DNA from: Thermosynechococcus sichuanensis E542
GTDB lineage: Bacteria > Cyanobacteriota > Cyanobacteriia > Thermosynechococcales > Thermosynechococcaceae
Length of the DNA: 64,000 nucleotides
Direction: 5' to 3'
Assembly: GCF_003555505.1 (NCBI RefSeq)
Contig: NZ_CP032152.1
Location: forward strand, 1,783,001-1,847,000
Part shown: one piece after another, positions 2,972 to 57,972 of the stretch
Numbering within the stretch: position 1 is the stretch's first letter
Layout of the letters: every line of letters starts with the position of its first letter
Program-made: the position numbers and the translations under genes
Notes under the pieces: generated by a model
Database searches by the model: none
Told to the model about the DNA's origin: nothing
The model's input: the letters and a program-made list of their open reading frames with translations, nothing else

Positions 2972-5137
2972 TTAGAAGCGTTGTTGGGGCGGTTGCAAAA
3001 TCCGATTTTGGATATTCGGCGGCATACTACCCGGTGTCGGCGAGTACTGGTAGCCAAAACCCGCATTCTGCGTATCATCAATGATTTTCGGTGTCACCAT
3101 TACCACCAGTTCATTCCGTTGACGCTGGTTTGCCTCCCGCCGGAACAACCGCCCCAATAGGGGAATGTCACCGAGAATTGGAATCTTGGTCACCAGTGAG
3201 CGATCCTGATCTTGGATAATGCCCGCCAGCATCAACGTTTGGCCATCCCGCAGGCGAATCCGCCCCGACTCCATCCGCCGCTGTGAGAGGAGTGTTCCTG
3301 TAGAGGGAGTCGTGACTCCTGGAAAGACAACTGAATAAGTGTCGCTGGGAGCACTCACTTCTGGAGAGAGTTGCAGGGTAATGAAGCCGTTGTCATCAAT
3401 TTGATCCACTGTGACATTAAAAATTACCCCCGCTGGTCGAATGATTGGACGAATTGTCTGAGACTGGAGTGCAGCTCCACCACCAGTTGCTTGAGAATCA
3501 ACTGTAGATTCAATGCCTGAAAAAATTTCTTGAGTCAAGTTGACTTGAGCTGCGCTCCCCTCTTGAATCACCAGCGTTGGATTGCTCAGAATTGTAGCGT
3601 TGTTATTTTGAATGGAAAGTTGAAGTTGAGCAAAAAAGTTACTGAGTAGATTGCCAACTGGCTCACCGGGAATAGGTGGCAAAGGAGGAGGAGTTAAGCC
3701 ACCAACATTGGGTGTTGTACCACGGATAACAGTTAATCCATCAGGATTAAAGATTGCGCCCCACAGACTACTGCCAAAGTTCGTGATCAAATCCGCGTTG
3801 GCGTTACGACCACGCAACAGGTTCACATCAATAAACTTGACATTCACCAGCACCTGTCGCTTACGGATGTCAAATTGCTGAATCAGTTGGGTAGCAATTT
3901 CCACTTTGCGTGGGGTACCAATCAATGTCACTGTGTTGGTGCGTGGGTCACCAACGACCTCCAGCCCCCGTAGGAGCGAGCTACGGCAAATTTGACCGAC
4001 AACACCGCCAGCCGCTGCTGGTACTTGAAGCTGCTCACAACCCGTTGCAGCCTCTGGCCGACCGGTATCTGGTAAGTTGGCACCATACATTTCCAAGAGT
4101 TGTACCGCCCCCAACTGCAAATCACCCTCACGGGTACGGGTTTCACGGTTAAGTGCCGTTTGAGCTGTTGTTGAGGCTTGTGCACCCCCACCCGTGCCCC
4201 CAGAGCCAATGGTACCCCCTGTCTGAGCAAGGGAGCTAATTTCCCGTGTGGTTGAGCCAGCGCCAAAAACGCGCATTTGATTGAGGCGGATGGTGCGGAC
4301 AATGCGGTTTTGGGCATCAGGAGGTAGAGCTTGGCCGACAAAGATGGTGCGGCCTTGACGATTGGCTTTGAGGTTGGTTACCCGCAGTACATAGTTAAAT
4401 ACGTCTTGAACGGATTCATTCTCGATATCGAGGGAGATGGTGACACCCCCCGCTTCGCCATTCCCTTCGGGAAAGACAACGTTCATATTAGCGGCACGAG
4501 CCAGTAGGGAAAGAACCTCCCGCACTGGAGCCTCCCGCAGCAGTAGGCGGGGAATGCGTTGATTGGTGCCCAGTTCAATCACATCGGGATCGGCATTAAG
4601 AGGGCTAATGAGCATATCACCAACAGAGGGTGGCACAGGGCGCGGCAGAAAAGGCGGCACCGCACTAGGCCCTGGGGGCATGGCCATGGGTTGACCACTG
4701 GGAGGAACTTGAGGACCAGCGGGGGCTTGAGCCGTAATGAAGTTAATTTGCAGGCCATCGCGTCCTTCGCGGATGACTTCACCAATGGGAGCAGCACTAA
4801 TGCCATTCACGGTAACGCGGATGGTTTTGGCGTCCAGTTGCACCACCTCGACGGAGGAGATGCCGGGCGCAGGGTTGTCTTGGCGGAAGGCACCCCCTTG
4901 GGGTAGGCGCAGTTGACTATTGGCAATGTCTGCAATGGAGGCATTGCCACGATTGACCGTGAAAACCGCTGGCCGTAAATTCCCCTGCACGTTGAAGAGG
5001 AGTTGAATACCATTGGGGGCTGTTACAAGGCGAATGCCCGTAATTTCAGTTGTGGTTGCCCAAGTGGGCGTTTGACTTGCAGCAATGAGGGCTGTTGTGG
5101 CCACCCCTAAGCCGAGACGATGTAAAAGCTGACTCAC
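2972..5137 (-). CDS. pilQ: Type IV pilus secretin PilQ with AMIN domain
   Basis: Outer-membrane secretin channel through which type IV pili leave the cell. The 721-aa protein has a signal peptide (hydrophobic to about residue 27), an AMIN domain at about 30-130 (GIRLVTAPNGIQLLF), a proline-rich linker near 140-170, and a secretin/TonB short N-terminal domain starting near 190 (PRLLLREAPVREVLSLLARAA). An N1-type domain follows, then the C-terminal secretin core, which includes a VVMVTPKII strand typical of the family. A glycine/serine/threonine-rich insert lies near residues 300-325. Last gene of pilM-N-O-Q, 94 bases after pilO. No separate pilP is seen, as is usual in cyanobacteria. Pili serve motility and natural transformation in relatives. 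Confidence 0.93.
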   Translation of the reverse strand: MSQLLHRLGLGVATTALIAASQTPTWATTTEITGIRLVTAPNGIQLLFNVQGNLRPAVFTVNRGNASIADIANSQLRLPQGGAFRQDNPAPGISSVEVVQLDAKTIRVTVNGISAAPIGEVIREGRDGLQINFITAQAPAGPQVPPSGQPMAMPPGPSAVPPFLPRPVPPSVGDMLISPLNADPDVIELGTNQRIPRLLLREAPVREVLSLLARAANMNVVFPEGNGEAGGVTISLDIENESVQDVFNYVLRVTNLKANRQGRTIFVGQALPPDAQNRIVRTIRLNQMRVFGAGSTTREISSLAQTGGTIGSGGTGGGAQASTTAQTALNRETRTREGDLQLGAVQLLEMYGANLPDTGRPEAATGCEQLQVPAAAGGVVGQICRSSLLRGLEVVGDPRTNTVTLIGTPRKVEIATQLIQQFDIRKRQVLVNVKFIDVNLLRGRNANADLITNFGSSLWGAIFNPDGLTVIRGTTPNVGGLTPPPLPPIPGEPVGNLLSNFFAQLQLSIQNNNATILSNPTLVIQEGSAAQVNLTQEIFSGIESTVDSQATGGGAALQSQTIRPIIRPAGVIFNVTVDQIDDNGFITLQLSPEVSAPSDTYSVVFPGVTTPSTGTLLSQRRMESGRIRLRDGQTLMLAGIIQDQDRSLVTKIPILGDIPLLGRLFRREANQRQRNELVVMVTPKIIDDTQNAGFGYQYSPTPGSMPPNIQNRILQPPQQRF

Positions 5138-5231
5138 GATGCTTGACTCCTCACAAATGCCACCAAACCTACGAAAAGAGAATGCAACTCAGTCCCAAAA
5201 CTATCTACGCTGCTTCTTTGATTGCCATGCG

Positions 5232-5969
5232 CTATTGCTGTTGTGGTTGCTGCGGTTGTCCTTGCTGCTCACCTCCTTGGGGCTGTCCCTCTTGGGGTGG
5301 TGGTGCCAGTGCGGCAATTTCCTCAGGGGTTAGGGGCACATAGGCCATGAGCTTAAATGTGGTAATCACTTCGCCGGGCTTATCAGCAACGAGTTCCATC
5401 GTCAGATTGTTAATAACGAGGAAGTTCTGCTGCTGATCAATTTTCTGCATGATCTGCAAAATACTGGGAAATGGCCCTTGAATCGTAACATTGGTTACCT
5501 GTTGTTTTAGTTTGGCATTTAACTCTGGGCCAAGGGAGCCGTCTTGGACAATTCCTGAAGCTGCACTATCGGGTTCAAAGGTATTCAATTGGGCACCGCT
5601 GGTCAGGATTAGGCGGTTAATGTCAAGGAGAAGGGTGTCTAGGGCTTCCTGTGTCGCAAAGAGCGATCGCACGTCACGATTTTCCTGCTTGGCGCGCTCT
5701 AACCCTGCTACCACATCATTGAGTTGCTTCAGGATCACTTCCCGTTGGGAGAGATCATTTTCCTGTTGGCTAATTTCTTCCTGTAGCTTGGCGGCTTCCT
5801 CGAGCTTGGGGGCAATGAGAAGACTCCCTAGATAGACTGCTGCTCCCAAACCGACGAGGGCAATCAGTACTCCACTAACCACAGGGGTTAGGGTAATGCC
5901 AAAGACCGTCGGATAATTGGGTGCGGGTTCCTCAATCGGGGGGCCGCCAAAATCGCCAGTTAGGGTCAT
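5232..5969 (-). CDS. pilO: Type IV pilus inner-membrane protein PilO
   Basis: Predicted 245-aa bitopic membrane protein of the PilM-N-O alignment complex linking the cytoplasmic motor to the secretin. One membrane segment lies near residues 28-50 (VVSGVLIALVGLGAAVYLG), followed by a periplasmic coiled coil (about 55-115, with KLQEEISQQENDLSQRE) and a ferredoxin-like periplasmic domain. The tail is glutamine/proline/glycine-rich (about 225-245), as in some cyanobacterial PilO proteins. Its ATG overlaps the pilN stop by 4 bases, suggesting translational coupling. Confidence 0.88.
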   Translation of the reverse strand: MTLTGDFGGPPIEEPAPNYPTVFGITLTPVVSGVLIALVGLGAAVYLGSLLIAPKLEEAAKLQEEISQQENDLSQREVILKQLNDVVAGLERAKQENRDVRSLFATQEALDTLLLDINRLILTSGAQLNTFEPDSAASGIVQDGSLGPELNAKLKQQVTNVTIQGPFPSILQIMQKIDQQQNFLVINNLTMELVADKPGEVITTFKLMAYVPLTPEEIAALAPPPQEGQPQGGEQQGQPQQPQQQ

Positions 5970-7770: not shown

Positions 7771-8020
7771 CAGTGAACGGTCAAGTTGGCATTAGCGAGA
7801 TGGTGTGAAGAGTGAATTTTAGAACAAGGCTGCACCCTACCCCACAGGGCTATGCACACACCTCGGCTGCTAAGGCGATCATAACCAATGGGCATCGGTT
7901 CTTTCCAATGCATTGGTATGGTTTGCAAAGTGGCTTTATGCAAAACTTGAGTGATCGCTCTTGGGGAAAGTTACCGACGATCGCTAAATGATGGTATCAG
8001 TTTTTCTTGATTGGCATTAA

Positions 8021-8602
8021 TTAGGGCTGAACAATCACCCTTGTGCCCACCTCAATTTTTTCAAAGAGGGCGCGAATATCATTGTTGCGCATCCGCACAC
8101 AGCCATGGGAAACCGCTTGGCCAATCAAAGATTCATTGGTTGTCCCGTGGAAGCCAGCGTAGTTGTTATTTCCCATGGGGGCAAAGACAATCAGGCGATC
8201 GCCCAAAGGATTGCGAGGACCAGGGGGAACAATTGTGCCTGTAAAGGGATTTTGCCACTTCGGGTTAACGACTTTGTGCAGCACTCGAAAGTTACCTTGG
8301 GGCGTTTCCCAGCCCGGCTTGCCCACGGCCACGGGATAGCTGGCTAATACTTGATCGCCTTCATAGAGAAAGACGCGGCGCTCCCGCAAGCGCAGGACAA
8401 TTTTGCGTTCCAAAGTGGGTAGAAACGGAGTTGCCTCACCCAGTGGGGGAAGTACCAAGGGCGCTAAGGCGGTTGGCAAGTACGGCGCTGACTCAGAGGC
8501 ACGGCTCACCTTGAGTTCTTCAGCACCCACGGCAGCCATGGGCAGGGTGGCGATCGCCCCCAGTGCTAATCCCAATGGCATACCTTTGACCCAACCCAAC
8601 AT
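8021..8602 (-). CDS. L,D-transpeptidase (YkuD domain), exported
   Basis: Predicted 193-aa periplasmic enzyme of the YkuD family, which makes 3-3 peptidoglycan crosslinks or attaches proteins to peptidoglycan. The N-terminus is a signal peptide (about 1-27, ending AVGA). The YkuD domain covers about 65-192. The catalytic motif SHGCVRM is present, with cysteine near residue 168, as is the upstream histidine in GFHGT. A proline-rich linker (about 40-60) follows the signal. It is 29 bases downstream of another exported protein on the same strand and may be cotranscribed. The precise crosslinking role is not determined. Confidence 0.9.
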   Translation of the reverse strand: MLGWVKGMPLGLALGAIATLPMAAVGAEELKVSRASESAPYLPTALAPLVLPPLGEATPFLPTLERKIVLRLRERRVFLYEGDQVLASYPVAVGKPGWETPQGNFRVLHKVVNPKWQNPFTGTIVPPGPRNPLGDRLIVFAPMGNNNYAGFHGTTNESLIGQAVSHGCVRMRNNDIRALFEKIEVGTRVIVQP

Positions 8603-8631
8603 GAGAACAACTCCGATCTCTCTCAGGACGC

Positions 8632-9063
8632 TTAGAACAGAATTTGCGTTGGCGGTGCTGGGGGTGGTGCTGCAGGGGGAATGGCAGCCGGACGCGGCGC
8701 TGGTGCTGAGCCACCCACTTGAGGGACTTGGATAGGTGTTACGGCCACAAACTCAGGTGCGGGGACAATCCGAGCACAAATAATTTTGGCGGTGGGCACG
8801 CTGGCATTTGGATCCAAAATCACCGCCACATCGAGACCTTCAACGATTTCTTGACGGAAGGGGCGCTGACGGTGCTTGCGATCAAACACCACCACAATCT
8901 CTTCACCCCAAGGTTGGCGCAGGGTGACATTATCCCCGTCAATGTTGGTGACAACTCCCCGCACAGCCTTCACCTGCTTGGCTTCGGCAGGGGAAAGTAA
9001 AACAGTGGTACAGGTTGCCATTGCGGCCAAGGCAACAAGAGCGGTACGACGCAGATTCAACAC
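8632..9063 (-). CDS. Small exported protein of unknown function
   Basis: I do not recognise a named family. The 143-aa product has a signal peptide (about 1-28, ending SPAEA), a compact beta-rich segment (about 30-110: VVTNIDGDNVTLRQPWGEEIVVV) suggestive of a small barrel, and a 30-residue alanine/proline tail. It ends 29 bases before the L,D-transpeptidase gene, so a shared envelope role is possible. That is inference from position only. Confidence 0.7.
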   Translation of the reverse strand: MLNLRRTALVALAAMATCTTVLLSPAEAKQVKAVRGVVTNIDGDNVTLRQPWGEEIVVVFDRKHRQRPFRQEIVEGLDVAVILDPNASVPTAKIICARIVPAPEFVAVTPIQVPQVGGSAPAPRPAAIPPAAPPPAPPTQILF

Positions 9064-31896: not shown

Positions 31897-31985
31897 GGGT
31901 GGGTACAGCGGGGTATGATGTTTTAGAGCAAGAAAAAATCAGGAATGGATTCAATTGTAGGGGAACTGTTCTTGCGGACTCAAGG

Positions 31986-32447
31986 ATGATTTCCGTTCTC
32001 GGTTTAGATCTGGGGCGCAAGCGCATTGGCGTAGCGGGGTGCGATCGCTTGGGGCAGTTGGCCACGGGCATTACCACGATTCAGCGGCGGAATTTTGCCA
32101 GTGATGTGGCACAGCTTCGTCAGATTTGCCAAGAACGAGGGGTAGAAAAACTAATTGTCGGCTTGCCCTACACCCTCGATGGTCAACTGGGTTCCCAAGC
32201 GCGGCAAGTGCAACATCTGGCGGAAAAAATTGGCGCGGCCTTGAACTTGCCCGTGGAATATATGGATGAGCGACTTACCTCATTTCAGGCGGAGGAGATT
32301 CTCAAACAGCGACGGCGATCGCCGCGGCACCATAAGGACTTAGTGGATCAAATTGCTGCTGCCCTAATTTTGCAACAATGGCTCGATGCCCGTTCTCAAG
32401 CCCTAAAATCAACATCGGCAGCCGTTGACCCCCCCTCCAAGGCATGA
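31986..32447 (+). CDS. ruvX: RuvX/YqgF-family nuclease (putative Holliday junction resolvase)
   Basis: Predicted 153-aa RNase H-fold protein. Motifs: VLGLDLGRKRIGVA (catalytic aspartate), LIVGLPYTLDGQLGSQA, VEYMDERLTS and a late KDLVDQIAAALILQQW. YqgF proteins are implicated in 16S rRNA 3'-end processing and annotated as Holliday junction resolvases. Start ATG 31986 is where family similarity begins; the frame is open further upstream without similarity. It ends one base before the convergent DUF3782-type array. Confidence 0.92.
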   Translation: MISVLGLDLGRKRIGVAGCDRLGQLATGITTIQRRNFASDVAQLRQICQERGVEKLIVGLPYTLDGQLGSQARQVQHLAEKIGAALNLPVEYMDERLTSFQAEEILKQRRRSPRHHKDLVDQIAAALILQQWLDARSQALKSTSAAVDPPSKA

Positions 32448-32448
32448 A

Positions 32449-33174
32449 CTACCACCTGCGGGGCTGAAACTGCGGGTCATTGAGAATCGTCACGCCATCT
32501 CCTGACTGCGCCAATACAAATAGCCCTTGCCGATAGGCATAGCGCGCTACTTCAGGGGGCACAACCATCCCTGCCACGGCGCCCAAAAGCTGGGTGTCTC
32601 GATACTGGTGCGCCAAGCGACGAAATTTGGCAATCCGCTCTAAATGCTCATCCACATCCCCTTGACTGAGTTTGGTTTTCACCTCAACCAGAACCGCCTC
32701 ATGCGTATTGACGACCAGCAGATCAATTTCTAAACTCTCGTTCCCATCTTGGAGAATGACATCGCTGTGAAGTTGAGAGACAGCAATGCCTCGACTCCGA
32801 AATAAACGGAGTACCGCTGGTCGTACCTGCCATTCCACAAATTCGCCAAGGCGATTGCCGAGTTTGCCCAGTTGCTGGTTGAGTTGGCGCGCTTCTTCGC
32901 GCAGTAAGCGCTCTGTTTCCCGAAAACGTTGGTCAGTTTCCTGAAAGCGCCGATCCGTCTCTTGGAAGCGACGATCCGTTTCTTGGAAGCGTTGGTTTGT
33001 TTCTTGGAAGCGCCGATCCGTCTCCTGAAAGCGTTGGTTTGTTTCTTGGAATTGGCGCTCTGTTTCTTGAAAGCGGCGTTCTGTCTCTTGAAAGCGGCGC
33101 TCTGTTTCCTTTTGAGCTTCTAGTAGCTCTGCCAGTAGTCGCCAAACATCGTCGGGAGTGTATGCTTGGGTCAT
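32449..33174 (-). CDS. Coiled-coil PD-(D/E)XK-like protein, copy 1 (DUF3782 type)
   Basis: Predicted 241-aa cytoplasmic protein. A short N-terminal helix (DDVWRLLAELLEAQKE) leads into nine heptads of the form RRFQET(E/N/D), a long coiled coil. A C-terminal domain (about 110-241) has a restriction-endonuclease-like core: EIDLLVV, then LVEVKTK (D...ExK), and VVPPEVARYAYRQGLFVLAQSG. This resembles the DUF3782 family, predicted nuclease-fold proteins of unknown role. The ATG at 33174 (MTQAYTP) is shared by all four copies; a TTG 12 bases upstream is possible. Its protein is identical to copy 2 although the DNA differs. Confidence 0.82.
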   Translation of the reverse strand: MTQAYTPDDVWRLLAELLEAQKETERRFQETERRFQETERQFQETNQRFQETDRRFQETNQRFQETDRRFQETDRRFQETDQRFRETERLLREEARQLNQQLGKLGNRLGEFVEWQVRPAVLRLFRSRGIAVSQLHSDVILQDGNESLEIDLLVVNTHEAVLVEVKTKLSQGDVDEHLERIAKFRRLAHQYRDTQLLGAVAGMVVPPEVARYAYRQGLFVLAQSGDGVTILNDPQFQPRRW

Positions 33175-33236
33175 TGCTAAACACAAAACTGTCTATTCAC
33201 GGCTGCCTCTGCCTTACCCCATCCTAGCCTAGGAAG

Positions 33237-33962
33237 CTACCACCTGCGGGGCTGAAACTGCGGGTCATTGAGAATCGTCACGCCATCTCCTGACTGCGCC
33301 AATACAAATAGCCCTTGCCGATAGGCATAGCGCGCTACCTCAGGGGGCACAACCATCCCTGCCACGGCACCCAAAAGCTGGGTGTCTCGATACTGGTGCG
33401 CCAAGCGACGAAATTTGGCAATCCGCTCTAAATGCTCATCCACATCCCCTTGACTGAGTTTGGTTTTCACCTCAACCAGAACCGCTTCATGCGTATTGAC
33501 GACCAGCAGATCAATTTCTAAACTCTCGTTCCCATCTTGGAGAATGACATCGCTATGAAGTTGAGAGACAGCAATGCCTCGGCTCCGAAATAAACGGAGT
33601 ACCGCTGGTCGTACCTGCCATTCCACAAATTCGCCAAGGCGATTGCCGAGTTTGCCCAGTTGCTGGTTGAGTTGGCGCGCTTCTTCGCGCAGTAAGCGCT
33701 CTGTTTCCCGAAAACGTTGGTCAGTTTCCTGAAAGCGCCGATCCGTCTCTTGGAAGCGACGATCCGTCTCTTGGAAGCGTTGGTTTGTTTCTTGGAAGCG
33801 GCGATCCGTCTCTTGGAAGCGTTGGTTTGTTTCTTGGAATTGGCGCTCTGTTTCTTGAAAGCGGCGTTCTGTCTCTTGAAAGCGGCGCTCTGTTTCCTTT
33901 TGAGCTTCTAGCAGCTCTGCCAGTAGTCGCCAAACATCGTCGGGAGTGTATGCTTGGGTCAT
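33237..33962 (-). CDS. Coiled-coil PD-(D/E)XK-like protein, copy 2 (DUF3782 type)
   Basis: The 241-aa product is residue-for-residue identical to copy 1 with the same nine heptads. The DNA differs at about a dozen positions that I could see, all synonymous (for example at 33340, 33368 and 33486). The whole 788-base unit, including the intergenic stretch, is a tandem duplicate of 32449-33236. Retained identity under synonymous divergence suggests selection on the protein. Confidence 0.82.
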   Translation of the reverse strand: MTQAYTPDDVWRLLAELLEAQKETERRFQETERRFQETERQFQETNQRFQETDRRFQETNQRFQETDRRFQETDRRFQETDQRFRETERLLREEARQLNQQLGKLGNRLGEFVEWQVRPAVLRLFRSRGIAVSQLHSDVILQDGNESLEIDLLVVNTHEAVLVEVKTKLSQGDVDEHLERIAKFRRLAHQYRDTQLLGAVAGMVVPPEVARYAYRQGLFVLAQSGDGVTILNDPQFQPRRW

Positions 33963-34024
33963 TGCTAAACACAAAACTGTCTATTCACGGCTGCCTCTGC
34001 CTTACCCCATCCTAGCCTAGGAAG

Positions 34025-34687
34025 CTACCACCTGCGGGGCTGAAACTGCGGGTCATTGAGAATCGTCACGCCATCTCCTGACTGCGCCAATACAAATAGC
34101 CCTTGCCGATAGGCATAGCGCGCTACCTCAGGGGGCACAACCATCCCTGCCACGGCGCCCAAAAGCTGGGTGTCTCGATACTGGTGCGCTAAACGGCGAA
34201 ATTTGGCAATCCGCTCCAGATGCTCATCCACATCCCCTTGGCTGAGTTTGGTTTTCACCTCAACCAGAACCGCCTCATGCGTATTGACGACCAGCAGATC
34301 AATTTCTAAACTCTCGTTCCCATCTTGGAGAATGACATCGCTGTGAAGTTGAGAGACAGCAATGCCTCGATTCCGAAATAAACGGAGTACCGCTGGTCGT
34401 ACCTGCCATTCCACAAATTCGCCAAGGCGATTGCCGAGTTTGCCCAGTTGCTGGTTGAGTTGGCGCGCTTCTTCGCGCAGTAAGCGCTCTGTTTCCCGGA
34501 AACGTTGGTCAGTTTCCTGAAAGCGCCGATCCGTCTCTTGGAAGCGGCGATCCGTCTCTTGGAAGCGTTGGTTTGTTTCTTGGAATTGGCGCTCTGTCTC
34601 CTGAAAGCGGCGCTCTGTTTCCTTTTGAGCTTCTAGTAGCTCTGCCAGTAGTCGCCAAACATCGTCGGGAGTGTATGCTTGGGTCAT
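34025..34687 (-). CDS. Coiled-coil PD-(D/E)XK-like protein, copy 3 (DUF3782 type)
   Basis: Predicted 220-aa paralogue, same architecture as copies 1 and 2 but with six heptads. The C-terminal nuclease-like domain is almost identical (RNRG in place of RSRG). Its upstream sequence (34688-34834) is different from that of copies 1 and 2, so this copy marks the outer edge of the tandem array and may carry the original promoter for a readthrough transcript of copies 3-2-1. Confidence 0.82.
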   Translation of the reverse strand: MTQAYTPDDVWRLLAELLEAQKETERRFQETERQFQETNQRFQETDRRFQETDRRFQETDQRFRETERLLREEARQLNQQLGKLGNRLGEFVEWQVRPAVLRLFRNRGIAVSQLHSDVILQDGNESLEIDLLVVNTHEAVLVEVKTKLSQGDVDEHLERIAKFRRLAHQYRDTQLLGAVAGMVVPPEVARYAYRQGLFVLAQSGDGVTILNDPQFQPRRW

Positions 34688-34834: not shown

Positions 34835-36010
34835 ATGCACCTAGAGACCCTGCGCGCCTACCACGACACCTACCCCGCCTTGCTCAATAAGACCTACCTC
34901 AACTATGGGGGTCAAGGGCCGCTGCACCAAGATACTTGGCAGGCCATTCTCCAGAGCGATCGCCACATCCAAGCGGAAGGCCCCTTTGCTAATCGCGTGT
35001 TTCCGTGGCTCAGCCAACAACTGCAAACCCTGCGGCAAGAACTGGCACAGCTTTTGGGGACAACGGCAGACACCATCGCCCTCACGGATTCAGTCACCAC
35101 AGGCTGCAACATTGTCCTTTGGGGCATCAACTGGCAAGCGGGCGATCGCCTGCTGATTTCCAACTGTGAGCATCCGGGGGTGGTGGCGATTACGGAGCAA
35201 TTGGCGCGGCGGTTGGGGGTGGTCGTGGATCGGGTGGCCTTTTGGCCCTGGTGTGACGATGAGGTGGCCGCCATTGAAGCCCAACTCCATCCCCGCACTC
35301 GCTTGGTCGTCCTCAGCCATTTGCTGTGGAATAGCGGGAAACTTTTGCCGCTGGACAAGATTGTTGACCTTTGCCACCGTCGCGGTATCCAAGTTTTGGC
35401 GGATGGTGCCCAAAGTGTGGGCATGGTGCCCCTGAATTTACCCGCCTTGGGGGTGGATTACTATGCCTTTACCGGACACAAGTGGTGCTGTGGACCTGCG
35501 GGACTAGGTGGGCTGTACATTCGGCGCGATCGCCTAGCCACATTGGAACCCACCTTTATTGGCTGGCGCGGCATTCACCAAACCCGTGAGGCTCAACCGG
35601 CGGGCTGGAAGGAGGATGCCAGTCGCTTTGAGGTGGCCACAACCGCGTTTTCCTTGGTACCGGGGCTAACCACTGCCCTGCAGGTGCATGATCAGTGGGG
35701 GACTGCCCAGGCGCGATACGAACGCATTTGTGAGCTGAGTCATTACCTTTGGCAACAGTTACAGGGCATAGCGGGTTTGACCTGTCTGAGTCCTGTGCCG
35801 CCGCCGTCGGGCTTGGTGGCCTTTCAGTTGGCCAATGGTCAGCATCGCCAATTGGTGCAAGACCTTGAGGCAGAGCATATCTTGGTGCGGGAATTGCTCT
35901 ATCCTGCCTCGGTGCGTGCCTGTGTCCATTACTTTACGCTGCCACAGGAGTGCGATCGCTTTGTTGCTGCCCTCAAACAATGGCTCCAGAATCATCCTGA
36001 GGAAGCTTGA
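34835..36010 (+). CDS. Class V aminotransferase, cysteine/cystine C-S lyase-like
   Basis: Predicted 391-aa PLP enzyme of the NifS/CsdB superfamily. The PLP-lysine site is FTGHKWCCGPAG near residue 212; other family contacts include SNCEHPGV near 107 and LADGAQSVG near 188. Overall it resembles the cyanobacterial cysteine/cystine C-S lyase (C-DES) more than IscS/SufS: it has no clear mobile-loop active-site cysteine near 320-350. The likely reaction is sulfur release from cysteine or cystine, possibly for Fe-S clusters. It sits between copies 3 and 4 of the coiled-coil nuclease-like family, in the opposite orientation, with no evident functional link. Confidence 0.78.
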   Translation: MHLETLRAYHDTYPALLNKTYLNYGGQGPLHQDTWQAILQSDRHIQAEGPFANRVFPWLSQQLQTLRQELAQLLGTTADTIALTDSVTTGCNIVLWGINWQAGDRLLISNCEHPGVVAITEQLARRLGVVVDRVAFWPWCDDEVAAIEAQLHPRTRLVVLSHLLWNSGKLLPLDKIVDLCHRRGIQVLADGAQSVGMVPLNLPALGVDYYAFTGHKWCCGPAGLGGLYIRRDRLATLEPTFIGWRGIHQTREAQPAGWKEDASRFEVATTAFSLVPGLTTALQVHDQWGTAQARYERICELSHYLWQQLQGIAGLTCLSPVPPPSGLVAFQLANGQHRQLVQDLEAEHILVRELLYPASVRACVHYFTLPQECDRFVAALKQWLQNHPEEA

Positions 36011-36022
36011 GAATTGAGTGAC

Positions 36023-36643
36023 CTACCACCTGCGGGGCTGAAACTGGGCATCATTGAGAATCGTCACGCCATCTCCCGACTGCGCCAATACAAATAGCCC
36101 CTGCCGATAGGCATAGCGCGCTACCTCAGGGGGCACAACCATCCCTGCCACGGCGCCCAAAAGCTGGGTGTCTCGATACTGGTGCGCTAAACGGCGAAAT
36201 TTGGCGATTCGCTCTAAATGCTCATCCACATCCCCTTGGCTGAGTTTGGTTTTCACCTCAACCAGAACCGCCTCATTCGCATTGACGACCAGCAGATCAA
36301 TTTCTAAACTCTCGTTCCCATCTTGGAGAATGACATCGCTGTAAAGCTGCGAGACGGCAATGCCTCGGTTCTGAAAGAGGCGCAGTACGGCGGGGCGCAC
36401 CTGCCATTCCACAAATTCGCCAAGGCGATTGCCCAGTTTGCCCAGTTGCTGGTTAAGTTGGCGCGCTTCTTCCCGCAGCAAGCGTTCCGTTTCTTGAAAT
36501 CGCCGATCCGTCTCCTGAAAGCGGCGCTCTGTTTCTTGAAAGCGGCGCTCTGTTTCTTGGAAGCGGCGTTCTGTTTCCTTCTGAGCCTCTAATAGCTCCC
36601 CCAATAACCGCCAAACATCTTCAGGGGTGTATGCCTGCGTCAT
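36023..36643 (-). CDS. Coiled-coil PD-(D/E)XK-like protein, copy 4 (DUF3782 type)
   Basis: Predicted 206-aa paralogue with only four heptads (three ERRFQET, one DRRFQET). Start ATG 36643 corresponds to MTQAYTP of the others; an ATG at 36667 would add eight residues. It keeps the EIDLLVVNANEAVLVEVKTK core. It is the most diverged copy (ELLGELL, LFQNRG, NANEA) and is separated from the array by the PLP-enzyme gene, so it may be the ancestral copy or an older duplicate. Confidence 0.82.
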   Translation of the reverse strand: MTQAYTPEDVWRLLGELLEAQKETERRFQETERRFQETERRFQETDRRFQETERLLREEARQLNQQLGKLGNRLGEFVEWQVRPAVLRLFQNRGIAVSQLYSDVILQDGNESLEIDLLVVNANEAVLVEVKTKLSQGDVDEHLERIAKFRRLAHQYRDTQLLGAVAGMVVPPEVARYAYRQGLFVLAQSGDGVTILNDAQFQPRRW

Positions 36644-36737: not shown

Positions 36738-37388
36738 TCAGCAGGAAGCTTGCGCCTGCCGCGCAGCAATGTCGGCGATCGCCTGCTTGAGAATGCGATG
36801 CTCTTGCACTTGAATGCGAGCATGGAGGGTTGCAGGCGTATCATCGGGGAGAACGGGCACCGCTGCTTGAACTAAAATCGGGCCACTATCCACTTCCTCT
36901 GCCACCAGATGGACGGTACACCCCGTAATCTTCACCCCCGCCGCCAAGGCTTGCTCAACGGCACGCAATCCGCGAAAACTCGGCAGCAAACTGGGATGCA
37001 GGTTAATGACCCGCTGGGGGTAGGCATTGAGGAGTACAGGCGTCACAATCCGCATCCAGCCCGCCATCACCACCCACTCGACCCCATAGGCTTTCAGGGT
37101 TTCGACAATGGCGGCATCGAGGCTTTCCCGGCTGGGATAGTGGCGATGGTTGAGGAGGACACTGGGAATCTGCCACTGTTTTGCCCGCTGGGCCACAAAG
37201 GCATCGGGATTGTTGTAGATCAGAACTTGAATCTGGGCGGCCAATTCCCCTTGGGCGATCGCCTCCGCAAGGGCAGCAAAATTGGAGCCACTCCCAGAAG
37301 CCAATACCCCCAATCGCAAGGGGCGAGGAGTAGGGGCGGTTGCCGGCGCAGAGGGGACAACAAGGGCCTCACTGGACATGACGGGCAT
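36738..37388 (-). CDS. purN: Phosphoribosylglycinamide formyltransferase
   Basis: Transfers formyl from 10-formyl-tetrahydrofolate to GAR in purine synthesis. The 216-aa protein has RLGVLASGSGSNF near residue 25, VMAGWMRIVTP near 107, the catalytic region VINLHPSLLPSF (His) and CTVHLVAEEVDSGPI (Asp). The N-terminal 24 residues are an extension; the alternative ATG at 37379 removes three. It overlaps the 3' end of the ctpA-type gene by 20 bases, implying coupled translation. Confidence 0.94.
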   Translation of the reverse strand: MPVMSSEALVVPSAPATAPTPRPLRLGVLASGSGSNFAALAEAIAQGELAAQIQVLIYNNPDAFVAQRAKQWQIPSVLLNHRHYPSRESLDAAIVETLKAYGVEWVVMAGWMRIVTPVLLNAYPQRVINLHPSLLPSFRGLRAVEQALAAGVKITGCTVHLVAEEVDSGPILVQAAVPVLPDDTPATLHARIQVQEHRILKQAIADIAARQAQASC

Positions 37389-38693: not shown

Positions 38694-40547
38694 CTAGAAG
38701 CTAAAGGTTGTCCGCACAGCACCCACGACGATGGGATCGTTGTTGGAGTTGCTGTTGGGATTAAAGATCGCAATCACACCGGGAGTAATCGAGATGTTGC
38801 GATTCACCGCAAAGCGGTAGAAGCCCTCTAGATGGTAAGAATTAAAGCGAGTATAACTTCCGTCGCCAGCCCTACCTGGTACATTCCTGATGCTAACCAA
38901 CTGAGGAGGCTGACCAAAGATCAAGCCCAACAGATCACCCTTCCGCCAGAGATCGGGAGAAGCAAAGGTGATGGCCCAGTTGACAATCTCAGCTTCCCGA
39001 CGACCACCGGCCAAAGCATTGCCTCGAACGCCATAGACATTGGCATAGCCTGCCCAACCTGCAATATTAAGTTGCTTAATGGGGCGGTAGGTAAATTGGA
39101 AGCCTATAGCATCAGAAGCTTGATTAGGAACATTGCTCGCTTGGATCTGTGGGGGCGGTGGTGATGGGTTCGGTACTGTAAAGCTGCCCAGTGGCTGTGC
39201 AGCAGAGGGCCGCGCCGGATTAGGAGACCGCGGAAGCGAAGAACTACTACCCGTACTGCCAAATGGATCAAGCCCATAGGAGTGGGTGTAGGTCACCCCC
39301 AAGGCCAAGTTCTTGACCGGGCGGACATCCACTTGGGCGAGGGCGGCATAGGCACCATTGAAGAAGCCATTGAGGCCATTTCTACCGGTTCTATCAGGAT
39401 CATTCGCGTTGGGCGCCAAATAACCGATGTTGAGGGTCACGCCAGTGCCGCGCTCTTTGTTTTGCACAATATCGTACTTGAAGCTCACCCCCGCAGCGTT
39501 TTGAGCATTTCCTGCACGGTAGATGGGGTTGAAGCGCCCAAAGCGGGAGAGGGCACCCGTGTCACTCGATTGGAGGAAGGGGTTAAAGTTGTTAAAGTTG
39601 TCGTTGAACTCACCCCCCACAAAGTCAAGGATCATTTGCCCCCGACTGGTGACAGGGAAGCTGTAGAAGGCTTTTTGTAGTTCAAATTGATTGTCATTAG
39701 TGCCATCATAGCCAAGACGCCCCATATTGGTCCTTGTTAATCCACTGTAGGAAGTGATATTAGCCGCTTGCAGACGCAACCTTAGGCGATCCTTGCCGTA
39801 GAAGCTCGTGTCAAAGTTCAGACGTACGCGTGAGTTAGCAACCGTGTTGTCATCAATTTTTGGTCGAGGAACCTGCAGAGGGGCACCCGGTTCTAATGCG
39901 CGATCGTTCGTCAGAATATCGGAAATGTTGAAGATAACGGTGGCGTTGAGTTTGGTGAGGGTAGCAAATTGGGTGGCTTCGAGGTTAGCAACGCGGCCTT
40001 CAAGGTTGGTGACGCGGCCTTTGATGACGGCGAGTTCGTTGGCAAATTCCTGCATCAGGCGGCGCAGGGTTTCAAGGTCTTCCTTGGTGGCAAAGCGATC
40101 GCTAATCACATCGAGGCAGGCGTTCAAGGCCGCAGCCATTTCAAAACGTGTCGCTGCTCGATTGCCGCGGAAGGTGCCATCGGGATAACCCGCAATACAG
40201 CCGTATTTTTCCACCAGTGACGCTAAGGCTTGGTAGGCCCAGTCGGTGGGGCGCACATCCGACAGTTGGCTGACCGAGGTCACTTGACCCATGCTCGTCG
40301 TTGTCGCGGCACTACCAGCCTCTAGTTCTGCAACTGAAGGGACAGATAAGTTTCTGCGACGGTTTTGGGCAACAAGCGTTGTGCTGGTTGGCAGGGTGGT
40401 TAAGGATTCAGCACCAGCAGTAGGGGTTTGAAACTGAGTGGCACTAAAGTTGGTCAAAGAGGTATCGGCTGCTGTAGCTGCACCTGCCAGCACACCTAAA
40501 AATAAAATAGGCGAGGTCAATACCAAGCCCGGAAAGATACGGGACAT
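38694..40547 (-). CDS. SLH-domain outer-membrane porin (iron-uptake porin family)
   Basis: Predicted 617-aa outer-membrane protein. Signal peptide about 1-26 (ending AGAATA). SLH domain about 95-150 (VRPTDWAYQALASLVEKYGCIAGYPDGTF) anchors to peptidoglycan-linked polymer. A coiled coil follows (about 155-195), then an OprB-like beta barrel ending in TTFSF. A proline/serine loop lies near residues 440-475. Family members mediate iron and small-solute uptake in cyanobacteria. Start ATG 40547 has AAGGAG 8 bases upstream; an earlier codon at 40589 would delete that site's function. Its own terminator follows. Confidence 0.9.
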   Translation of the reverse strand: MSRIFPGLVLTSPILFLGVLAGAATAADTSLTNFSATQFQTPTAGAESLTTLPTSTTLVAQNRRRNLSVPSVAELEAGSAATTTSMGQVTSVSQLSDVRPTDWAYQALASLVEKYGCIAGYPDGTFRGNRAATRFEMAAALNACLDVISDRFATKEDLETLRRLMQEFANELAVIKGRVTNLEGRVANLEATQFATLTKLNATVIFNISDILTNDRALEPGAPLQVPRPKIDDNTVANSRVRLNFDTSFYGKDRLRLRLQAANITSYSGLTRTNMGRLGYDGTNDNQFELQKAFYSFPVTSRGQMILDFVGGEFNDNFNNFNPFLQSSDTGALSRFGRFNPIYRAGNAQNAAGVSFKYDIVQNKERGTGVTLNIGYLAPNANDPDRTGRNGLNGFFNGAYAALAQVDVRPVKNLALGVTYTHSYGLDPFGSTGSSSSLPRSPNPARPSAAQPLGSFTVPNPSPPPPQIQASNVPNQASDAIGFQFTYRPIKQLNIAGWAGYANVYGVRGNALAGGRREAEIVNWAITFASPDLWRKGDLLGLIFGQPPQLVSIRNVPGRAGDGSYTRFNSYHLEGFYRFAVNRNISITPGVIAIFNPNSNSNNDPIVVGAVRTTFSF

Positions 40548-56884: not shown

Positions 56885-57972
56885 GGAGAAAAACTTGGGG
56901 GGATAGGACAGCTTTTAAGTTTTTCCAAGCTTCCGGGCTTTATGTTCAAACAGCTGGTCAGATCCTCAAGGGATTTGAAGGGATTCTGACGGCGATAGTT
57001 CAGGATTTTTTTGAGATGACTTTCTCTAGTTTTCTTATGGACTCTTGCCTTCTTAAACCATTCTTCAATCTGCGCCTCTGTTCCTTCGTTCAGCAAGCGC
57101 ACTTTTAACTCAAGCTGATTCTGATCTTCGGAGAAGGTTGATGGCGTTGCTGTGGGTGTGGGCAGTGAAACTTGTGAAGGCGGTAAGCTATTCTTATCCT
57201 TATTGACTTTTGCCTTCTTGAACCGTTCTTCAATCTGCGCCTCTGTTCCTTCGTTCAGCAAGCGCACTTTTAACTCAAGCTGATTCTGATCTTCGGAGAA
57301 GGTTGATGGCGTTGCTGTGGGTGTGGGCAGTGAAACTTGTGAAGGCGGTAAGCTATTCTTATCCTTATTGACTTTTGCCTTCTTGAACCATTCTTCAATC
57401 TGCGCCTCTGTTCCTTCGTTCAGCAAGCGCACTTTTAACTCAAGCTGATTCTGATCTTGTGAAGGCGGTAAGCTATCTATCCTATCATTTATCTTTGCCA
57501 AGGCTGTCTTCATTTCCTCAAGAGACTGGCAAATGATTTTATGTTGCTCTAAAATCTGCTGATTTTGCTCAAGCAGTATCTTGATAATGTCTGCGTTGGC
57601 GTTGCTCGCTGGTGAGTCAAAAGCTGAAGACCCTGTAGTTTGTTCTTCTGTCACCTCAGAAATTGGAGAGTTAGACTGAATTTGATTGAGAATGGCAGTT
57701 TCTATTTCTAGCGTGTCATTTTCCTCAAGAATCAGAGCATTGATTCTATCAAGTTTAGCTTTTTGAGCAGCGCAGTACTGCTGGTAACCTTGGAGAAGCT
57801 CGTATGTATGGCATGATAACCGAGAACCTAATCGCCTAACGACCAAAGGTGGAAAAGCAGTTCTAGATATTGATAAATACTCAGTGATGCGTTCAATCTC
57901 ACTCTCCTTAAGGGTTAGAGCTGGATTCTTAACTTGAATGTCTGAAACTGAAACTTGTTTGTAACTAATCAT
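56881..57972 (-). CDS. ParB-like protein with 55-residue tandem repeats
   Basis: The 363-aa product has a ParB/Sulfiredoxin-type N-terminus (about 5-90: VSVSDIQVKNPALTL, FPPLVVRRLG, YELLQGYQQYCAAQKA), though the usual central HTH is not evident. A coiled coil follows (about 125-165). Then come three copies of a 55-residue unit containing DQNQLELKVRLLNEGTEAQI with a serine/threonine/proline linker, the first copy lacking most of the linker. The C-terminal 45 residues (YRRQNPFKSLEDLTSCL) look like a half helix-hairpin-helix motif. It is 37 bases downstream of a ParA-like gene, so the pair probably works as a partition or positioning module. Centromere sites were not found. No HIP1 sites occur in the pair. 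Confidence 0.7.
   Translation of the reverse strand: MISYKQVSVSDIQVKNPALTLKESEIERITEYLSISRTAFPPLVVRRLGSRLSCHTYELLQGYQQYCAAQKAKLDRINALILEENDTLEIETAILNQIQSNSPISEVTEEQTTGSSAFDSPASNANADIIKILLEQNQQILEQHKIICQSLEEMKTALAKINDRIDSLPPSQDQNQLELKVRLLNEGTEAQIEEWFKKAKVNKDKNSLPPSQVSLPTPTATPSTFSEDQNQLELKVRLLNEGTEAQIEERFKKAKVNKDKNSLPPSQVSLPTPTATPSTFSEDQNQLELKVRLLNEGTEAQIEEWFKKARVHKKTRESHLKKILNYRRQNPFKSLEDLTSCLNIKPGSLEKLKSCPIPPSFSP
57047..57475. repeat. 165-bp tandem coding repeat in the ParB-like gene
   Basis: Successive units begin at 57047, 57212 and 57377, exactly 165 bases (55 codons) apart. Units 1 and 2 are nearly identical (differences visible around 57055-57061 and 57220-57226); unit 3 is cut short after about 85 bases, losing the linker. 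The frame is preserved. Confidence 0.93.

Follow-up and report, generated by a model that had tools for sequence, protein, structure and literature searches.

A 64,000-bp stretch of the genome of Thermosynechococcus sichuanensis E542 (G000:C1:1783001-1847000, hereafter the window; the genome is one contig of 2,650,294 bases) carries three tandem genes and a nearby fourth copy (c1 to c4) in which a run of 21-bp repeats precedes a constant C-terminal domain. This domain has the predicted fold and the catalytic residues of a PD-(D/E)XK nuclease, the copies within a genome evolve in concert, and tandem arrays of such genes, on stalks of unequal length, recur well beyond the genus. We favour, with a probability of roughly 0.55, the reading that these genes encode DNA nucleases oligomerised by a coiled-coil stalk whose length is tolerated.

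A predicted PD-(D/E)XK domain behind a heptad stalk

The lower ends of c1, c2 and c3 (32449, 33237 and 34025) are 788 and 788 bases apart, and c4, at 36023, lies 1998 bases further on (Table 1). These coordinates agree with the original prediction, as do its counts of nine, nine, six and four heptads encoded by a 21-bp minisatellite, for which Tandem Repeats Finder gives a period of 21 in all four genes. The probable start of each gene is an ATG (MTQAYTP...), yielding proteins of 241, 241, 220 and 206 amino acids (aa); the TTG starts (c1, c2) and the GTG start (c4) in the open reading frame (ORF) list merely mark the longest frames. The e and f positions vary between heptads of the window copies (D-R, N-Q, E-R).

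An AlphaFold model of c4 (62 aligned proteins; mean predicted local distance difference test score, pLDDT, 88.8) consists of an unbroken helix of 86 residues (7-92) followed by an alpha/beta core in the order E99-108, E111-120, E124-133, H136-152, E160-169. In the c1 model (37 aligned proteins; pLDDT 86.5) the unbroken helix extends to 121 residues (7-127), and the core is that of c4 displaced by exactly 35 residues. The coiled coil of the original prediction is thus supported by a predicted helix as well as by the heptads. D116, E129 and K131 (c4 numbering) are invariant in all 62 aligned proteins, three of which come from the window; this alignment, A2, took in 59 of the 77 loci described below, truncated or duplicate loci being left out. 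D116 is on the second core strand of the c4 model, and E129 and K131 are on the third, as is usual for PD-(D/E)XK enzymes. Core fold and D...(D/E)xK residues are therefore both present, in support of the predicted PD-(D/E)XK-like domain, and the D...ExK residues, whose loss had been named as grounds for abandoning the idea, are intact in c1, c2, c3 and c4. E79, on the helix ahead of the core, is kept in 87% of the aligned proteins. The mean share of the commonest residue is 0.72 in the nuclease, 0.60 in the N-terminal cap (7-24), 0.49 in the heptads and 0.47 in the neck, the profile of a conserved nuclease and a fairly conserved tip with a variable spacer between them.

Near the top of the VIA structure matches of c4 are NucS (2vld_A; Z 10.8, 106 residues aligned at 3.0 A), EndoMS (5gke_A; 10.5), Can2 (7bdv_A; 10.4) and Card1 (6wxw_A; 9.6), covering residues from about 70 to 196. 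What is shared is the PD-(D/E)XK core (9-14% identity in the rows listed). The c1 and c4 models have a single helix, and no CARF domain, ahead of the nuclease, so the feature expected of a Card1 or Can2 relative is absent; nor do these models contain the N-terminal domain of NucS, and NucS-type matches are confined to residues 74-192. Foldseek ranks 1y88, AF1548, first (expect value, E, 4.3e-5) and an R2 retrotransposon protein next. The best weak match in a sequence search of solved structures was VC1899 (E 0.0036), and a search with a single sequence returned nothing under E 0.06.

Purifying selection and concerted evolution in Thermosynechococcus

The 788-bp units of c1 and c2 differ at ten sites, all of them third codon positions and all synonymous, so that the claim of identical proteins encoded by synonymously differing DNA holds throughout. 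Given that 23.2% of single changes in the gene are synonymous, ten out of ten would arise by chance with a probability of 4.5e-7; counting transitions alone raises this to 2.8e-5. Four of the five C-domain differences between c1 and c2 are private to one copy or the other in the site table and hence resemble new mutations filtered by selection, beyond mere conversion tracts. Relative to c1, c3 has one amino acid change, located in the C-domain; in c4, six C-domain residues and two residues of the N-terminal cap are changed.

We compared 11 genomes of the genus (G000-G010; one genome per species, with copy number taken from one assembly). Site A, between the ruvX-like and aminotransferase-like genes, is occupied in seven (G000, G001, G002, G004, G005, G006 and G008), with one copy in each of the six relatives and three in the window genome, the only one with the triplication. 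Site A is empty in G009, where the ruvX and aminotransferase matches are 36 bases apart; G003 and G010 have no ruvX match within 1.5 kb beside the aminotransferase, and G007 has only distant aminotransferase matches. Site B, between the aminotransferase and purN, is where c4 resides; G000 and G005 have an intact copy there and G001 and G008 a broken one, and in G002, G004 and G006 the site is empty. The G002 junction keeps a few bases resembling the gene end, which we read as a probable deletion scar. At site C there is one intact copy in the window genome, two in tandem in G005 and one broken copy in G008; site D is intact in G005, a fragment in the window genome and broken in G001 and G006. 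The near-complete genome of G003 has no match to the family. Decay of copies in relatives, named originally among the grounds for refuting the idea, does occur at the three other sites; beside ruvX, 7/11 genomes have an intact copy.

Between ruvX and the site-A gene, all six relatives carry a palindrome of the type CCCAAAT...TGGGC (that of G005 varies). It is missing in the window, where the two stops are one base apart.

The site-A orthologues of G001, G002, G004, G005, G006 and G008 (206, 206, 220, 234, 220 and 213 aa) have four to eight heptads and few other changes. Of the 17 distinct intact Thermosynechococcus proteins, 16 have an N-terminal part whose length in residues equals 5 modulo 7. 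For the C-domain of c3 against the six orthologues, the ratio of non-synonymous to synonymous divergence (dN/dS) is 0.039-0.063, compared with 0.045-0.054 for ileS, 0.033-0.072 for purN (five pairs) and 0.077-0.126 for the aminotransferase. Judged by these codon comparisons, the nuclease domain is under purifying selection as strong as that on ileS.

These data bear on the suggestion that the genes are non-functional repetitive ORFs maintained by slippage and duplication. Varying copy number and length, and the broken copies in several relatives, are what such ORFs would display, but ten out of ten synonymous changes, a dN/dS near 0.05 and catalytic residues invariant in 62/62 proteins make this explanation extremely improbable; for the intact copies, the first two of these contradict a pseudogene or junk repeat.

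The same low dN/dS, together with the adjoining ruvX-like gene in the genus and a repair endonuclease, NucS/EndoMS, as best structural match, would suit a housekeeping-type nuclease of DNA repair or replication. However, no match was found in 349 of 386 cyanobacterial genomes (among the matches listed) or in G003, the ruvX neighbour does not recur beyond the genus, and site A is empty in G009. We consider a housekeeping role rather unlikely. An accessory function would agree with the patchy spread and with the strong selection in those genomes that carry the gene.

Synonymous divergence (dS) between sites A and B within a genome is 0.24-0.30 in the window genome and 0.175 in G005, and is thus lower than that between the two genomes at either site (0.65-0.67 at site A, 0.49 at site B). 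In a DNA tree of 19 C-domains, the four window copies join at 100/100, and the site-A and site-B copies of G005 join at 91/90. A site-A clade is rejected (p-AU 0.00015), as is a site-B clade (p-AU 0.0011), the site groups having been named before the tree was seen. We conclude that the copies evolve in concert, by conversion or by repeated local duplication. The original prediction had offered purifying selection or protein-level homogenisation; the former stands, and the latter is better replaced by concerted evolution between copies at the DNA level, acting together with purifying selection, as the tree and dN/dS indicate.

Tandem arrays recur with unequal stalks

In an even sample of 386 cyanobacterial genomes, 37, from 17 of 142 genera, give matches to a nuclease-domain profile (E <= 0.001; among the matches listed), often several in one genome. 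A scan of named genomes yielded 77 loci in cyanobacteria, in gamma- and betaproteobacteria and in one Desulfonatronum; these loci come from the best 80 of 226 stretches encoding a relative. More than one match lies within the fetched stretch in 12 of the 77 loci; in four of these (L069, L088, L124 and L132) the additional matches are just fragments, a broken frame or a copy cut short. As a rough control for tandem arrangement, 7 of 324 neighbour ORFs of at least 150 aa have a paralogue in their own locus; its weakness is that each locus is centred on the family gene and not on the neighbours.

Arrays are present in Arthrospira (two stretches close to each other, with six genes and three), Microcystis (three genes), Candidatus Contendobacter (four), Halochromatium, Methylococcaceae and, judging by the profile matches, the genome G284 (three). 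Sister subfamilies with other stalk repeats also form arrays, among them one of seven genes (G103) and one of four (G276). Seven stalked nucleases in tandem in L059 (2049-9223) and four in L060 (2034-5869) apparently correspond to a single locus, seen in two species from one genus group. Lengths differ within each of these two arrays, and in that of L059 all seven differ (238, 255, 273, 248, 302, 262 and 280 aa).

For adjacent copies in 12 hand-picked arrays, stalk length differs in 24 of 28 pairs, and not one of the 28 has an indel in the nuclease (last 125 residues; identity 87-100%). Two of the arrays are one locus in two species, and two others are one subfamily in two species. One G103 pair has stalks that differ by 54 residues, yet its last 140 codons agree base for base. 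Copies of equal length are c1 and c2 in the window and three copies in L083. A wider count also took in two more arrays and two pairs whose genes lie some 2 kb from each other; in it, 28 of 32 pairs differ in total length, partly through the choice of start codon. The counts exclude L063/L064 (truncated or masked frames), L088 (contig end), L093 (the counterpart of L092) and L124 (broken).

Stalk repeats were examined in 117 proteins: 87 from the 77 loci, four from the window and 26 from sister arrays. A clear period, for which we chose a threshold of 0.35 or more in self-identity, is found in 44: 7 residues (19 proteins), 14 (10), 18 (6), 11 (3), 25 (3), and 21, 28 and 29 (1 each). Coiled coils are built in lengths of 7 and 11 residues, and all 44 periods are sums of 7s and 11s, a property of just 9 among the 26 lengths tested. 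Because the proteins are kin, these counts are not independent. That the units are coiled-coil periods argues that a coiled coil is needed, and we regard this as the best evidence for it; in-frame steps alone would follow from the unit. A stalk length that is constant modulo 7 across the family was considered and rejected: in the 57 of 87 proteins that could be measured, classes 2, 6, 0 and 3 dominate (20, 15, 11 and 7 proteins). The distribution modulo 7 is non-uniform (p 2e-7, ignoring kinship), and that modulo 11 is also non-uniform (p 2e-4).

Unequal stalks on a nearly constant nuclease raise the possibility of a length code, in which stalks of differing length and charge order would self-sort into homo-oligomers, or give one catalytic domain different reach, and length diversification would be selected; reach and partner choice were also what the original prediction thought that length could tune. 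The differing adjacent stalks beside nucleases 87-100% identical and free of indels, the seven lengths of L059, the conservation of the Microcystis lengths between species and the variable e and f positions are all compatible with this. On the other hand, slippage of the minisatellite would by itself produce length differences, c1 and c2 and three L083 copies have equal lengths, and the site-A orthologues range from four to eight heptads with few other changes. We therefore regard selection for length as unlikely. The broader proposal, that bacteria repeatedly build arrays of one nuclease on unequal stalks to obtain self-sorting oligomers of different reach, with repeat changes in sums of 7 and 11 diversifying the stalk while gene conversion keeps the catalytic domain identical, seems to us distinctly unlikely.

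Relation to known families

The original prediction spoke of an undescribed role; as an architecture, at least, a coiled coil joined to a PD-(D/E)XK domain is already in print (PMC1913061, PMC4786415). DUF1626, now PF07788 (PDDEXK_10; COG5493), was assigned to the PD-(D/E)XK superfamily in 2007, with a note of its coiled-coil N-terminus (PMC1913061), and so shares with the window proteins a C-terminal nuclease domain behind an N-terminal coiled coil. In a 2016 study, Pfam is said to group these coiled coils as DUF3782, the bacterial ones being without the beta-layer nonads of crenarchaeal stalks (PMC4786415); the window stalks likewise read as plain heptads. DUF1626 is also listed among genes near archaeal HEPN genes (PMC3710099).

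The window proteins match PF07788 over part of the profile (positions 2-45 of 74) and retain the motif III Lys, in both respects differing from PDDEXK_10. As whole proteins they score 21.3-21.4 (c4), 20.6 (c1/c2) and 20.9 (c3) bits, around the gathering cut-off of 21.2; as genome frames, all four copies score 22.2-22.3 bits. DUF3782 (PF12644) likewise has a coiled-coil stalk and neck and is matched by 56 of the 62 aligned proteins at E <= 0.01, but the window stalk is encoded by a 21-bp minisatellite and the scores (13.6 for c1/c2, 17.0 for c3 and 17.1-20.0 bits for c4) are below its cut-off of 24.4. Scores around one cut-off and below the other indicate a divergent subfamily rather than plain members. 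All NCBIfam matches fall far under their cut-offs and are mostly to coiled coils; PADLOC matches of c1 are mostly to coiled-coil proteins, and those of c4 are mostly weak matches to nuclease domains.

COG4636, often named Uma2/DUF820, is absent from the Pfam matches of the window proteins at E up to 1 (for c1 and c2, among the matches listed), no direct comparison having been made. It resembles the present family in that stand-alone PD-(D/E)XK genes proliferate in cyanobacteria, with tandem duplications and without conserved neighbours, and selfish behaviour has been suggested for it (PMC551604). It differs in its active site, with a migrated Lys, and its tandem duplications are called rare in general (PMC551604); the word 'coiled' is absent from that paper. 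A precedent for heptads of variable number, encoded by a VNTR and placed before a constant enzyme, is the NeuO O-acetyltransferase, whose catalytic efficiency rises linearly with heptad number (PMC3046976). NeuO is, however, an unrelated enzyme, its heptads are disordered in the crystal, and its 7-bp DNA unit leads to phase variation (PMC3046976), whereas adding or removing a whole 21-bp unit in the window genes preserves the frame.

In the literature searched, we found no experimental function for the coiled-coil PD-(D/E)XK family, and no paper on tandem arrays or stalk-length variation (subscription papers and preprints lay outside the search).

Genomic context and mobility

No neighbour cluster occurs in more than 6 of the 77 loci (429 neighbour ORFs), and the largest consists of ABC ATPases, a common kind; a function linked to an operon was rejected on this count. 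One cluster is common to five loci, three from a single Anabaenopsis genome, one from Geminocystis and one from a gammaproteobacterium, and its three scanned members match type IIG restriction-modification models. Five loci are too few to claim a link. Among seven neighbours scanned with PADLOC, two had no match. A short AAA-ATPase-like frame lies in the L060 array, and a helicase-like gene in that of L059, with PADLOC matches nearby. In Chromatiaceae (L116, 3144-6931, and in part L113, L120 and L130), the gene lies beside genes that we take to be hisG-like and hisD-like, apparently within a his operon.

A nuclease of defence or of mobile-element restriction would accord with the type IIG matches, with the ATPase-like and helicase-like neighbours, with the nearest folds (NucS, Can2/Card1 and restriction enzymes) and with CARF_PDDEXK as the best PADLOC match of c1 and c4 (20.4 bits, E 5.7e-5). 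Yet no other defence-like cluster stood out in the 77 loci, for which seven neighbours were scanned with PADLOC, and the models have no CARF or other sensor domain. A role in defence is thus doubtful.

Two kinds of mobility were considered and rejected. For a transposon with terminal repeats, only scattered imperfect inverted pairs of 14-22 nt were seen, none of them bracketing the window copies. For phage or plasmid cargo, there was no match in phage records, plasmid records or viral contigs; 43 stretches of the viral contigs fitted a pattern, and none is a relative.

A further alternative, modelled on the proposal for COG4636, is a selfish nuclease that would cut or nick DNA and so stimulate, through repair, its own duplication. 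The patchy, multicopy and tandem distribution, the lack of a widely conserved neighbour, the decay of copies in relatives and the similar behaviour of another PD-(D/E)XK family (PMC551604) point in this direction. By contrast, no terminal inverted repeats were seen around the window copies, the searches of phage records, plasmid records and viral contigs gave no match, and the site-A copy is intact in 7/11 genomes under strong selection. We view selfish propagation as a tentative possibility.

A model for the stalked nucleases

In the reading that we prefer, each gene would encode a stand-alone nuclease of the PD-(D/E)XK type, carried by a stalk that forms a parallel coiled coil. The N-terminal cap (P-D/E-DVWRLL...AQKE) would open one continuous helix, and the RFQET heptads would join several chains into an oligomer, to whose core each heptad probably contributes a Phe and a Thr, with Arg and Glu/Asp flanking it. 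D116, E129 and K131 would form a metal-dependent cleavage site in the nuclease core, and the stalk may bring two or more such active sites onto DNA. As accessory multicopy genes, tandem copies would be born by local duplication, swap sequence by gene conversion and be lost again. Purifying selection holds the nuclease domain, while slippage presumably changes the number of stalk repeats without disturbing the coiled-coil register. Such register-keeping steps beside a conserved nuclease suggest that stalk length is mostly tolerated rather than tuned.

Several observations weigh against this model. The structure matches span only the common PD-(D/E)XK core (9-17% identity in the top twenty rows). 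The structures modelled are monomers, in which pLDDT drops to about 65-77 before and at the neck, and a Phe/Thr core is unusual, so that oligomerisation is not certain. No clear period is present in 73 of the 117 stalks, and there is kinship among the counted proteins and arrays. The Microcystis genes keep their differing lengths (200, 186 and 179) in two species at 98% DNA identity, and length differences in most array pairs would also be expected if length were tuned.

Other features of the window and genome

The names ruvX/yqgF, class V aminotransferase and purN in Table 1 are our assumption. The only full-length matches in the genome to the 62-bp spacer are the two upstream of c1 and c2; this sequence is unlike the DNA upstream of c3 and c4. 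A promoter and terminator scan found five promoter-like sites (2.4 expected), four of which are one motif repeated within the genes, and five terminator-like sites (5.8 expected). Elsewhere in the window are a 165-bp tandem repeat (57034-57458; 2.6 copies, 98% matches) and a two-copy 21-bp repeat (39977-40021) within a large porin-like gene.

Table 1. Coordinates of the stalked nuclease genes and adjacent features in the window
Feature	Position	Strand	Remarks
c1 (copy 1)	32449..33174	-	241 aa; 9 ETxxxFx heptads + ETERLLR; AlphaFold-modelled
c2 (copy 2)	33237..33962	-	protein identical to c1; 9 heptads + ETERLLR
c3 (copy 3)	34025..34687	-	220 aa; 6 heptads + ETERLLR
c4 (copy 4)	36023..36643	-	206 aa; 4 heptads + ETERLLR; past the aminotransferase-like gene; AlphaFold-modelled
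c1, nine 21-bp units	32920..33108	-	unit list; Tandem Repeats Finder period 21 at 32936-33108
c2, nine 21-bp units	33708..33896	-	unit list; Tandem Repeats Finder period 21 at 33733-33893
c3, six 21-bp units	34496..34621	-	unit list; Tandem Repeats Finder period 21 at 34515-34623
c4, four 21-bp units	36494..36577	-	unit list; Tandem Repeats Finder period 21 at 36482-36577
62-bp spacer upstream of c1	33175..33236	-	identical to c2 spacer
62-bp spacer upstream of c2	33963..34024	-	identical to c1 spacer
ruvX/yqgF-like gene	31899..32447	+	convergent with c1, one base between stops; synteny in relatives
class V aminotransferase-like gene	34835..36010	+	between c3 and c4; synteny in relatives
purN-like gene	36738..37388	-	neighbour of c4; synteny in relatives

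The same genome carries further stalked PD-(D/E)XK genes. Three, with an AQKRTEERVEE repeat, are located at 5021-5800, 8001-8765 and 8902-9624 of L066 (G000:C1:1019500-1033500) and encode proteins of 260, 255 and 241 aa; two are adjacent and the third is beyond what we take to be a porin-like gene. G005 has a similar set (L068). Another gene (L067, 2242-3123; G000:C1:999000-1004500) encodes 294 aa with a W-containing stalk repeat (RRWEEQ) and, unlike the window copies, matches PF07788 in full (positions 2-74, 74.8 bits).

Significance

While the joining of a coiled coil to a PD-(D/E)XK domain is already known, the evolutionary behaviour of the arrays and stalks is what is added here. The catalytic domain is held as tightly as a tRNA synthetase, with stalks that vary freely but by coiled-coil periods; copies evolve in concert; and tandem arrays are found in several cyanobacterial genera and in proteobacteria. 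This makes it testable whether the variable stalk sets the reach or the pairing of the nuclease, and why tandem arrays keep forming.

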